DNA of 64,000 bases, taken from the NCBI GenBank assembly GCA_003568415.1, contig PWXV01000324.1, positions 1 to 64,000 of the forward strand, given 5' to 3'. The DNA is from Ignavibacteriales bacterium (GTDB lineage: Bacteria > Bacteroidota > Ignavibacteria > T3Sed10-11). Both the position numbers and the translations under genes were made by a program. Positions 29,730 through 33,675 of this stretch are shown here, one piece after another. Under the pieces are notes generated by a model. It was not told the DNA's origin and made no database searches. It saw nothing but the letters and a program-made list of their open reading frames with translations. The stretch's first letter is position 1; each line of letters opens with the position of its first letter.

Positions 29730-29742
29730 TGAACCATGGTAG

Positions 29743-29906
29743 GGTGGACACCACCTGTGTGCTGGCTTTGTGTGAAGGGGGTGGCGTCCACCTTGTGTGC
29801 GGGAATAATTCGTAGTAGCTTTTTTAAAATCCACACTACTGCAAATCCTTCGCGCAGGTGGAGGCCATCTTCCTGCGCGCATCTCCCGGCGCAGATGGTC
29901 TCCACC
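29743..29906. repeat. Cluster of palindromic GGTGGA-type elements
   Basis: GGTGGACACCACC (29743-29755) and GGTGGCGTCCACC (29780-29792); CGCGCAGG..CCTGCGCG (29851-29879); GCGCAGGTGGAGGCCATCT with GCGCAGATGGTCTCCACC inverted (29852-29906). Confidence 0.65.
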
Positions 29907-29939
29907 CGGCATCGTGCTGTTTAATTTGAATTTACTACC

Positions 29940-30806
29940 TCAACCATCTCTATCATCTAAATAAGAATATACCGTTTCAAGTCGGTCCACCTCATCCAGA
30001 GAAGTATTATCACACCGCCTGATAATCCAGGGTGAGATGAGTTTAACACCGGATTTCCTACGGTTTGCCCGTTCAACCGATTCAAATGCTATTTCATATA
30101 CTAAACCTGGGTTAATACTCACGACCGGACCGAATTGTTCGCGGGTGTTTTTTGACACATAATCCCGTATCCGGAGGTGCTCATCAGAAACGATGCCCGA
30201 CTTTGCTTTAACAATCGGAACAAGCAATTCATCTTTCCAAACGGCAAATGTGTATTCATTGCGGGATACATAAAGCAAGACTGCTTTTATTGTGGCGTGC
30301 CGGCGGGTCGCCGTGAATTTTGTATGGAATGATTCATTGAGCTCCGTTTCACTGACCGGAGACCTGTATGTACCGGTAATAATTCTGTTAAACACATATA
30401 GCTCTTTAGGGGATAACACTCTCCATAGTGAATGGATGTAATCTCTTGTATGTTTATAGGATGAATGATTAAGATCGTGAAGACGATCCATAATTTCGTG
30501 CAATGGCAGTGTTGAAGCACTCGTATTTGATTTTACCAGTAGCGTAGTTGCGTCGGTAAGGTTGCCTGTGTGCTGAATACATTCTTCAATAAGCCATAGC
30601 GGGAGTTCTGTAAAATCCGATACACATATACGAAGTTCATCATACTTGATATATCTGCGTTTACCGGTATTCCGTAACAATGATTCTGCCCAATGCCGGT
30701 CAGCATCAATTTGAATATCTTGCATATACCGGTACAGCCGGTGAACCCGTTGTTTCCGCGACGGTATCGTAAGCAGATCAAAATGAAGTTGTGCAAACGA
30801 ATTCAT
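29940..30806 (-). CDS. ATP-dependent DNA ligase-like protein lacking the adenylation domain (N-terminal DNA-binding domain + C-terminal OB domain only)
   Basis: N-terminal FAQLHFDLLTIPSRKQRVHRLYRYM...LPLWLIEECIQHTGNLTDATTLLV...VFNRIITGTYRSPVS; C-terminal YTFAVWKDELLVPIVKAKSGIVSDEHLRIRDYVSKNTREQFGPVVSINPGLVYEIAFESVERANRRKSGVKLISPWIIRR. No KxDGxR motif in the ORF. Confidence 0.7.
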   Translation of the reverse strand: MNSFAQLHFDLLTIPSRKQRVHRLYRYMQDIQIDADRHWAESLLRNTGKRRYIKYDELRICVSDFTELPLWLIEECIQHTGNLTDATTLLVKSNTSASTLPLHEIMDRLHDLNHSSYKHTRDYIHSLWRVLSPKELYVFNRIITGTYRSPVSETELNESFHTKFTATRRHATIKAVLLYVSRNEYTFAVWKDELLVPIVKAKSGIVSDEHLRIRDYVSKNTREQFGPVVSINPGLVYEIAFESVERANRRKSGVKLISPWIIRRCDNTSLDEVDRLETVYSYLDDRDG

Positions 30807-30839: not shown

Positions 30840-32318
30840 TCACCCGAACACAACCTTTCCAACCTCACACTCACCGCACCGTTCTTCCCGGCAATAGAAT
30901 TTATACAATTGTATCTTTCCTTGATACATTGGTGCAGTTGTTTTTTCCGGTTTACCGTTCAGCAATTCCTTGTCGATCTTGCGTGTTATATTGTTATCCG
31001 CCGGTGCAGATAGTGTGGAAAATAATTCTTCAGTCGCACCTCGTAGATCTATGTCTTTATACGTCCGTGCATATAAAAACAGAAATGGTAGTATAACATT
31101 TATCGTAATCTCGTCGATACGGCTCCTGCCGATCAGTTGTGTTAGCTTGCGCGAAGCTTTTTTACCGAACGTATAATGATTCTTCCAGTATCCATCGGCA
31201 GGTATTGTAAAATAGTTTCTGATCTCTTTGATTTTATTCCGTGGTACAGCATCCGGTTGTTTTACAGTACCGAGAAGAAATTCAAGCACAGGATTATCGA
31301 TCATTCGTTCCACTATGCGGGCAAGCGCGGCTATGCGCAGCGTCGGGAAGTTTTGCGGACGCAGCCGGAAGAACTGCCATTCGGTTGCATCCATCGGCGA
31401 ATGTTTGATTTTTGTTTTTTCGTTTCCAACTGTATGGCGTAATTCCTTTTGATAGGTATCGTCGGTTGTATTGTCAAGAAGGCCTGCCATTTCGAAAAGG
31501 AGCCCTTCACGTGCATCCCCGGGTAGTTCGCGTAGACGCGGGAAGGTCACAAGGGACGAAAGCCGTCTGAACGGAAGCTGATTTTTGGAATATCCGAGCG
31601 CTTCGGCTATCGATTCGTATAATAACTGCTCCCACGCATCTTTCTTTCGTAGATCATTAACCGATGGAGGGCGCGCCGGAGGTGGTATCTCATCGATGTT
31701 TCCCTGAAACGGTATCTCGCCGTACCGCGCGGCGGGTTCACGCAGATCGTAATTGTCGGGTGATGCAAGTTCGTGCAGACGGTTATGCATTGTCCGTACC
31801 TTCAGTTCAATTCGCCGCATACCAAGTGTAGTAATCCAGTTCAGTTTGAGGTTATTATCGACACCATCATTCTTTCCATAACAGGCTATATGATCCAACC
31901 GGCGTGAGCGCTCGCCCGATATAGACTTTTGCCAGACCGCGCGAACCGGTTCAATGAGAAACTGGTCGAGAATTAATGTCGGCACTTTGCGTCCGCTTTC
32001 TGTAGTTGTTCTCTCAAAGTCGCTGCCGGATTTCATTACAACGTGTAATATGACTTTATTATATCGCGGGTCGTGCTGGTGAAGGTGAGTTGACCAGTCT
32101 TCGAGCGTGCGGTGTATCTCGATGTCGCCGGCGTAGAGTGTGTCACCGATTTGTATTTTTGCGTTGAGGAAATCCGGTCCGGTGTCGGTGTTCGGTGTGC
32201 CCGGATCGATTATGGTTACGGAAAGTCCCTCGTGTGATTCGAGGGAAGCGGTACGGAAAAGCTGCTGCGACCATACTTCATGCAGGAACTTTTCCGGCAG
32301 CAACGTTGTGCGTGGCAT
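30840..32318 (-). CDS. DUF2851 family protein
   Basis: LPEKFLHEVWSQQLF...LSVTIIDPGTPNTDTGPDFLNAKIQIGDTLYAGDIEIHRTLEDWSTHLHQHDPRYNKVILHVV. Confidence 0.85.
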   Translation of the reverse strand: MPRTTLLPEKFLHEVWSQQLFRTASLESHEGLSVTIIDPGTPNTDTGPDFLNAKIQIGDTLYAGDIEIHRTLEDWSTHLHQHDPRYNKVILHVVMKSGSDFERTTTESGRKVPTLILDQFLIEPVRAVWQKSISGERSRRLDHIACYGKNDGVDNNLKLNWITTLGMRRIELKVRTMHNRLHELASPDNYDLREPAARYGEIPFQGNIDEIPPPARPPSVNDLRKKDAWEQLLYESIAEALGYSKNQLPFRRLSSLVTFPRLRELPGDAREGLLFEMAGLLDNTTDDTYQKELRHTVGNEKTKIKHSPMDATEWQFFRLRPQNFPTLRIAALARIVERMIDNPVLEFLLGTVKQPDAVPRNKIKEIRNYFTIPADGYWKNHYTFGKKASRKLTQLIGRSRIDEITINVILPFLFLYARTYKDIDLRGATEELFSTLSAPADNNITRKIDKELLNGKPEKTTAPMYQGKIQLYKFYCREERCGECEVGKVVFG

Positions 32319-32344
32319 GATGTTCCTCCCGGTTTGTTCATAGA

Positions 32345-33142
32345 TTATGTGATCTCATTCCGGTATGTATTGATCATTGCATGCACTTCCACTGCGGTAT
32401 CTCGTACATTATTCGCGTAAATGATCGATCGTCCGACGTTTATCAGTAGCAGATCCTTATTCTTCGTACAACCGTGTTCAACTGAATTTTTCAAGTCACC
32501 GCCCTGTGCACCGATACCGGGTAATAGTATCGGCATATCGGGGGCAAGTTTTCTAATGCCGGCAAGCTCGCGTGCTTGTGTTGCTCCGACCACGAGCCCG
32601 ATATTTTTACTGGTGTTCCATTTCTTCGCCCGTTGAACTACCCTTTCATAGAGATAACGGTCACCGACTTTCAATTTTTGAAAATCCTTTGCACCCGGAT
32701 TAGAGGTCAGAGCAAGAATGAAAGCACCTTTCTCCGGATACTGAATAAAAGGCTCCACCGAATCGGTTCCCATATACGGATTGACCGTCACGGCATCGAA
32801 TTCAAATCCATCGAATAGTGTCTCCGCGTACCGTTCTGCTGAATTACCGATATCGTTGCGTTTACCGTCACCGATAGTGATAATTCCATCCGGTACCAGC
32901 TCAAGTGAATCCTCAAGCGCTTCAATACCCGATATTCCCTGTGCTTCGTAAAAAGCAAGATTAAATTTATAGGCACATACCATGTCCGATGTCGATTCGA
33001 TAATGTGTTTATTAAATTCTACAATCGGGTCGCCTGTTTTTTGCAGGTGTGAAGGAATTTTATCGAGCACCGGATCAAGTCCGATACATAACAGACTATT
33101 ACAGGTCTGTTGTATTTGCCGCAGCCGTTCGGTAAAGGTCAT
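32345..33142 (-). CDS. pyrF: Orotidine 5'-phosphate decarboxylase (type 2)
   Basis: LCIGLDPVLDKIP, IGDGKRNDIGNSAERYAE, AVTVNPYMGTDSVEPF, PGIGAQGGD. Confidence 0.92.
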   Translation of the reverse strand: MTFTERLRQIQQTCNSLLCIGLDPVLDKIPSHLQKTGDPIVEFNKHIIESTSDMVCAYKFNLAFYEAQGISGIEALEDSLELVPDGIITIGDGKRNDIGNSAERYAETLFDGFEFDAVTVNPYMGTDSVEPFIQYPEKGAFILALTSNPGAKDFQKLKVGDRYLYERVVQRAKKWNTSKNIGLVVGATQARELAGIRKLAPDMPILLPGIGAQGGDLKNSVEHGCTKNKDLLLINVGRSIIYANNVRDTAVEVHAMINTYRNEIT

Positions 33143-33675
33143 TTGAAGTTCTTCCACATCATTGATTCCATCGGTTTTTCGTTGCGTTGCGTATATTTGG
33201 CTGAAGTCTTTTTGTTGTATGGTGTAAGCACATCTCCGGATGTTTCAAAATATATTAATTGTCCGATCGGCATGCCATAGTATACGCGTACCGGCTGCTT
33301 AACCGAAATCTCCAGTGTCCAGTAATTACAAAATCCGACATCGCCCTTACCGGCGGTCGCGTGAATATCGATACCGAGCCGTCCAATACTGCTTTTGCCT
33401 TCGAGGAACGGAACGTGTTTATGCGTTTCGGTGTACTCAAGTGTTACACCAAGGTATAATCGTGAAGGAAACAATATCATCCCCTCATCGGGTATTTCAA
33501 TATAGGTAACCTTATTGTGTTCTCTACTGTCCAATAAATCGTCTTTATAGATTGCAAGGTGTTTTCCGAGGTGTACGTCGTAGCTGTTCGAACCGAGGTG
33601 CTTCCGGTCGAACGGTTCAATTACTATTCTACCGCTCTCGATCTCGTCGAGTATCTGTTTGTCTGTGAGGATCAT
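33139..33675 (-). CDS. dcd: dCTP deaminase
   Basis: GSNSYDVHLGKHLAIY, FLEGKSSIGRLGIDIHATAGKGDVGF; stop overlaps the pyrF start (ATGA). Confidence 0.92.
   Translation of the reverse strand: MILTDKQILDEIESGRIVIEPFDRKHLGSNSYDVHLGKHLAIYKDDLLDSREHNKVTYIEIPDEGMILFPSRLYLGVTLEYTETHKHVPFLEGKSSIGRLGIDIHATAGKGDVGFCNYWTLEISVKQPVRVYYGMPIGQLIYFETSGDVLTPYNKKTSAKYTQRNEKPMESMMWKNFK

Follow-up and report, generated by a model that had tools for sequence, protein, structure and literature searches.

A ligase-derived protein without its adenylation domain, a candidate DNA-binding partner of a repair-cluster exonuclease in Ignavibacteria

RESULTS

The shell gene and its neighbours

The window analyzed here is the whole stretch of 64 000 nt at positions 1–64 000 of contig PWXV01000324.1 (C91:1-64000 in our numbering), from an Ignavibacteriales bacterium (assembly GCA_003568415.1; genome G000). 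On its minus strand we saw an intact gene for a protein made of the two outer domains of a LigB-type DNA ligase, which we call a ‘shell’. The features of the locus are as follows:

29940..30806 (−): LigB-type ligase shell without nucleotidyltransferase (NTase) domain, 288 aa; ATG start, TGA stop
30339..30806 (−): N-terminal helical DNA-binding domain (DBD), residues 1–156; PF04675; TIGR04120 positions 2–157; AlphaFold2 helices between residues 4 and 161
30579..30596 (−): WLIEEC, residues 71–76; DBD helix motif kept in shells and, in altered form, in most exonuclease fusions
30297..30338 (−): junction without adenylation domain, residues ∼157–170; hhalign gap; pLDDT < 50 at 159–169
29952..30296 (−): C-terminal OB-fold domain, residues 171–285; TIGR04120 positions 422–522; AlphaFold2 strands between 171 and 264
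30048..30062 (−): RRKSG, residues 249–253, in the OB domain
30006..30020 (−): former motif VI, now RRCDN, residues 263–267; replaces R-x-DK, needed for ligase step 1
30840..32318 (−): DUF2851 gene, upstream neighbour of the shell; same order in G002, G004 and G005

An earlier reading of this DNA, made from the letters alone (the sequence-only reading), had named dcd, pyrF and DUF2851 as neighbours, and domain search in the window confirmed them. The dcd-pyrF-DUF2851 string ahead of the shell spans 30840-33675; the order pyrF-DUF2851-shell was also present in locus L015. The DUF2851 gene lies upstream of the shell in 4/4 genomes of the genus that have a shell, and a ferredoxin-like gene lies downstream in three of them (G000, G002, G004). 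DUF2851, a domain to which no function has been assigned, is a conserved neighbour only; we found no evidence linking it to the role of the shell. By eye, GC-rich intergenic repeats of the GGTGG...CCACC type were seen between the shell and the ferredoxin-like gene (window 29735-29920).

A ligase with a single large gap

Residues 50–160 of the shell matched PF04675 (DNA_ligase_A_N, Pfam; E 2.7e-6), and the NCBIfam models NF006701 (E 1.7e-48) and TIGR04120 (E 7.5e-39) each matched the protein in two separate pieces. In the genome-wide search, the pieces covered positions 2–157 and 422–522 of the 526 positions of TIGR04120; ∼265 positions, motifs I–IV among them, are missing from the shell, and its score of 134 bits is below the curated cut-off of 400 bits. 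With regard to membership in the LigB-type ligases, the DBD (PF04675) and the OB domain are present; the PF01068 adenylation domain with catalytic KxDG is absent from the protein. Comparison of a profile of nine shells with a profile of six intact ligases (hhalign) gave probability 100 and E 3e-52 over 288 columns with a single large gap; the gap of ∼245 residues is the adenylation domain, and the rest aligns end to end. The deletion junction falls at residues ∼155–170, where the end of the DBD (ITGTYRSPVSE) leads through a linker of ∼15 residues to the strand that comes after motif V (IKAVLLYV) and on to the OB domain. The sequence-only reading had described a ligase shell with the catalytic block absent and the frame intact; the two-piece matches and the gap bear this out.

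Search of PDB sequences (phmmer, hmmsearch) returned mainly archaeal ATP ligases (E 1e-13 with the profile). AlphaFold2 run with three sequences reached a pLDDT of 46; addition of one full-length homologue (L016) raised it to 70, and this four-row model (pLDDT 70.4, pTM 0.48) has an all-alpha N-terminal half with ten helices and an OB-like beta domain as the C-terminal half, the placement of the two domains relative to each other being unreliable. Comparison with ligase structures had been proposed by the sequence-only reading; a Foldseek search with the model returned ATP-dependent DNA ligases, or complexes containing one, as all of the best 50 PDB matches (best E 4.4e-9); many alignments span the whole ligase, others ∼140 columns.

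Motif V (WWKWK) is gone from the shell, and the motif VI residues R257, R265 and D267 (numbering of the window protein) are lost. Unchanged in shells are G226-P227, R249, K251 and G253 of the OB domain as well as W71 and L72 of the DBD; R249 and K251 are invariant across the intact ligases, shells and fusions examined, and so is G253 except in one Lys-less ligase (G055). The shell is a ligase-derived protein from which the catalytic domain has been cleanly deleted. Since it has no NTase domain, KxDG, motif V or motif VI and does not reach the curated score, the annotation ‘ligase’ would be wrong for it; we class it as a pseudoenzyme derived from a ligase.

What was removed corresponds cleanly to one domain, and one could suppose that the shell is one half of a split ligase whose adenylation module is encoded elsewhere. 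A check for a full-length ATP-dependent ligase had been proposed from the sequence alone; six-frame search of the six whole genus genomes found no PF01068 ligase catalytic domain in any of them, which largely refutes this idea. As the motif V and motif VI residues for adenylation are gone too, we regard a split ligase as very improbable.

What the genus kept of the repair cluster

The LigB-type ‘cisplatin damage response’ ligase (TIGR04120, NF006701) belongs to the Lhr-Core/MPE/Exo/Lig cluster according to Ejaz and Shuman (2018), as cited in PMC10140301 and PMC8301817. In the source genome, the exonuclease of this cluster (TIGR04122, 426.6 bits against a cut-off of 325) is encoded at C91:70597-71553, on the same contig as the shell, ∼40 kb from it and 6.6 kb beyond the window end. 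TIGR04122 also scored well over cut-off in G004 and G005, whereas G003 has a fragment of it at a contig end; in G002, a genome 81% complete with a shell, no exonuclease was detected. The HxHxDH metal-binding motif is intact in the genus exonuclease. Neither the Lhr-core helicase (TIGR04121) nor the cluster phosphoesterase (TIGR04123) scored over cut-off in any of the six genus genomes. Thus, of the four-gene cluster the genus kept the exonuclease and the outer domains of the ligase; NAD-dependent LigA is present in 6/6 genomes. The sequence-only reading had placed the shell away from the usual ligase-associated partners; the helicase is indeed missing from the genome, and the reading needs correction for the exonuclease, which the genome does encode, just past the window.

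Conservation and selection

The search for orthologues with the same deletion, again proposed earlier, yielded intact shells in three of the five other genus genomes, with identity over full length of 61% (G002), 54% (G004) and 52% (G005), all with DUF2851 upstream; the two genus genomes without a shell are 68% and 85% complete. Two of the orthologues come from genomes publicly named MAG ‘Ignavibacteriales bacterium CSSed10_136R1’ and ‘Bacteroidetes bacterium CSSed165cm_521R1’. As every genus genome is a fragmented assembly and two or more are MAGs, an assembly or sequencing artefact could come to mind; with the same junction and length in assemblies of four species, and other shells in further genera, assembly artefact was ruled out, and we assign such an origin next to no probability.

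Between genus orthologues the pN/pS of the shell is 0.34–0.41; its dN/dS, where dS is unsaturated, is ∼0.13–0.15, in comparison with ∼0.065 for the exonuclease. The shell is under purifying selection that is weaker than that on the exonuclease; it also evolves faster, given 52–61% identity within the genus versus 80–82% for the exonuclease. An intact gene in four species at such identity and pN/pS is not a product of misassembly, nor is it a newly formed pseudogene. The earlier judgement that this was ‘not simple decay’ is supported by four intact orthologues sharing an upstream neighbour, by their pN/pS and by the selective retention of residues.

Survey of the class and phylum

We searched 394 genomes of the class and read each ligase-family locus individually. 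The ligase family was present in 30 genomes, which were divided into four groups: (i) those with the catalytic Lys (11); (ii) those with a full-length ligase without it (5); (iii) those with shells (10); (iv) those with an exonuclease fused to a mini-shell (4). In group (i), three of the 11 ligases (G019, G046, G174) have eroded motifs IV and V (loci L073:9255-10877, L074:9846-11417 and L075:7169-8740), possibly an early stage of inactivation. In group (ii), the Lys is replaced by T (G063), L (G055), N (G390), F (G184) or S (G178); the Lys-replaced loci are L061:9121-10659(−), L066:8192-9829(+), L071:8118-9743(+), L072:8517-10031(−) and L076:9287-10963(−). Group (iii) comprises the four genus members (G000, G002, G004, G005) and six from outside the genus (G254, G289, G295, G298, G347, G293), the gene of G293 being split over two contig ends that overlap by a few residues.

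The fusions of group (iv) (G047, G137, G191, G248) come from one genus, in which they turn the association with the exonuclease into a physical one. Each is a single ORF that runs from the TIGR04122 exonuclease into a shortened DBD helix and an OB domain; the same protein scores over cut-off with TIGR04122 and matches the OB region of NF006701. The ORFs are L067:8712-10325(−), L068:648-2441(−), L069:7829-9649(+) and L070:7352-8953(−); three of these genomes (G137, G191, G248) still have helicase and phosphoesterase. We observed further trimming of the DBD in G289 and in the fusions, which could be progressive erosion.

In the phylum search, 124 of 398 genomes matched the ligase family; among the matches listed, the open frames have 495–660 aa, one has 985, the window's own excepted, and outside the class the listed matches are full-length. 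We inspected 27 of these loci (two being class members): the motif I Lys is present in 27/27, and motif I is canonical in 26, the motifs of G406 being degraded. Degradation is also apparent in the ligases of two congeners, G402 and G398, and all three genomes have the exonuclease elsewhere. These solitary full-length ligases outside the class, from three species of one genus, with motif I and later motifs degraded, are at L116:8790-10376(−), L117:8228-9805(−) and L118:7492-8958(+). Viral contigs searched with the intact-ligase alignment gave no homologues. In the open-access literature that we searched, outside which most subscription papers fall, we came across no account of a DBD-OB remnant of a ligase without the NTase domain, of bacterial ligase pseudoenzymes or of exonuclease-minishell fusions.

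Association with the exonuclease

The ligase family (30 genomes) and high-scoring TIGR04122 (33 genomes) occur together in 28 of the 394 class genomes (hypergeometric P = 2e-35, uncorrected for kinship); the two ligase-positive genomes without high-scoring TIGR04122 have a completeness of 81% and 75%. Outside the genus, the shell lies directly downstream of the exonuclease gene in five of six cases (G293, G298, G347, G289, G295), with a 4-bp stop-start overlap of the ATGA type in the first four; in the sixth, G254, the shell precedes intact helicase and phosphoesterase genes and the exonuclease is 10 kb off. The exonuclease keeps its HxHxDH in nearly all cases, fusions included. As relatives of the window's gene are co-encoded with the exonuclease or fused to it, these arrangements point to a more specific role than the competitor, clamp or scaffold named in the sequence-only reading.

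Four genomes of one other family (G023, G058, G066, G079) have the exonuclease without an adjacent shell, so it can in some cases do without one. These partnerless exonuclease loci are L110:7142-8173(+), L111:6466-7488(−), L112:5199-6164(−) and L113:2-841(−).

Repeated loss of the catalytic domain

In a tree built on the DBD and OB columns, the shell of G293 and the ligase of its congener G390, which is full-length but lacks the Lys, are sisters (support 99/98). The G293 shell falls outside a 14-member clade (97/94) in which the shells of the genus group with the other five, with the fusions and with the ligase of G055, full-length but dead. A single clade of all NTase-less proteins was rejected (AU P = 0.007); hence the NTase domain was lost at least twice. 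The position of G055 inside the 14-member clade, where branches are long, hints at further losses.

Helicase and phosphoesterase accompany 11/11 Lys-bearing ligases of the class, and both are missing in 14/19 Lys-less cases; this association, striking in counts (Fisher P = 9e-5), comes down to 1–2 phylogenetically independent pairs and is not significant once phylogeny is respected. The pattern may mean that loss of helicase and phosphoesterase accompanied release from ligation. Ligase chemistry can also go while the helicase stays, as seen in G178, G254, G137, G191 and G248.

One could argue from the same counts that the ligase became dispensable once helicase and phosphoesterase were lost, and that shells are stages of slow decay on the way to full loss. 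The faster evolution of the shell, the extra trimming in G289 and the fusions, and the four genomes with the exonuclease alone agree with such a course. Slow decay would sit badly, however, with intact frames in four diverged congeners at the observed pN/pS, with a stop-start overlap that recurs, with particular residues being selectively retained and with the existence of fusions; moreover, a shell or fusion is found beside intact helicase and phosphoesterase in G254, G137, G191 and G248. We consider decay quite unlikely.

DISCUSSION

ATP-dependent ligases clamp DNA with the DBD and OB domains and carry out the chemistry with the NTase domain; for the shell, such clamping would be inherited by homology only. 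We propose, with a probability of about 0.6, that the shell is a selected non-catalytic DNA-binding partner of the SNM1/Artemis-like MBL exonuclease of the LigB-Exo-Lhr-MPE cluster. The helical DBD and the OB domain would form an open clamp recognizing nicked or broken duplex DNA; the clamp would position or regulate the MBL-fold exonuclease of the same ancestral repair cluster, and sealing would be left to the housekeeping NAD-dependent LigA. DNA binding, a part in repair and, in the genus, contact with an exonuclease encoded 40 kb away are presumed properties of the shell. Co-encoding and fusion, taken with the precedents of LigIV-Artemis, catalytically dead LigIV and Exo-LigB fusions, make a DNA-recognition subunit for the exonuclease the likeliest function. 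The findings suggest that the remnant ‘ligase’ guides a nuclease on DNA rather than sealing breaks.

The four genomes that have the exonuclease with no shell beside it, the faster evolution of the shell and the extra DBD trimming in some relatives count against a partnership, and so does the separation of the two genes in this genus. This separation would fit a free-standing nick- or end-binding protein (a protector, a competitor or a recruiter for LigA or other enzymes) that acts independently of the exonuclease: the genus gene sits in a DUF2851-shell-ferredoxin-like neighbourhood in three genomes, DBD and OB are the DNA-facing ligase domains, and in G002, a genome only 81% complete, the shell comes without a detected exonuclease. 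The coincidence of ligase family and exonuclease across the class, and the shells of relatives co-encoded or fused with the exonuclease, speak against independence, and we think this explanation unlikely.

If the partnership is real, it may be part of a wider trend. It is about an even bet that in this Bacteroidota class the LigB-type ligase repeatedly turned into a subunit that targets DNA for the SNM1-like exonuclease without catalysis of its own, through Lys loss or excision of the adenylation domain, with the exonuclease-minishell fusions as the end point. A main role of the ‘ligase’ in this poorly understood cluster may then be to hold and present DNA to the exonuclease, not to seal it. 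No role has yet been assigned to the LigB/Exo/Lhr-core/MPE cluster (PMC10140301). Repeated natural loss of ligase chemistry, with the DNA-facing domains kept beside the exonuclease or fused to it, suggests which part of the ‘ligase’ is required by selection in such lineages; the shell/exonuclease pairs and the fusions, with two proteins or one, are compact enough to put this to the test.

In comparison with the LigB-type ligase itself, the shell is homologous along its whole length in the DBD and OB domain, and its genome still has the exonuclease of the cluster; it differs in having no adenylation domain, KxDG, motif V or motif VI, and helicase and phosphoesterase were not found in the genus. 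Exonuclease-LigB fusions are known from Opitutus terrae and from Antarctic Dry Valley metagenomes; their ligase half shows activity when excised (PMC10140301). There, as here, the cluster metallonuclease is N-terminal to the DBD and OB domains of the ligase; the adenylation domain is still present in the known fusions, whereas the partner here, fused or adjacent, lacks any catalytic domain.

In human LigIV, the N-terminal helical DBD is the part that binds Artemis, a nuclease of the SNM1 family (PMC4037875), and human LigIV without catalytic activity still promotes end joining carried out by another ligase (PMC9638927). Both features of LigIV, a ligase DBD that engages an SNM1-type MBL nuclease and support of repair without catalysis, resemble what we propose for the shell. 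LigIV differs in that it keeps its NTase and BRCT domains, its inactivity was engineered rather than evolved, and its partners are others. By this analogy, the shell seems to be a naturally evolved counterpart, in bacteria, of the non-catalytic role shown for human ligase IV, itself a binder of an SNM1-family nuclease.
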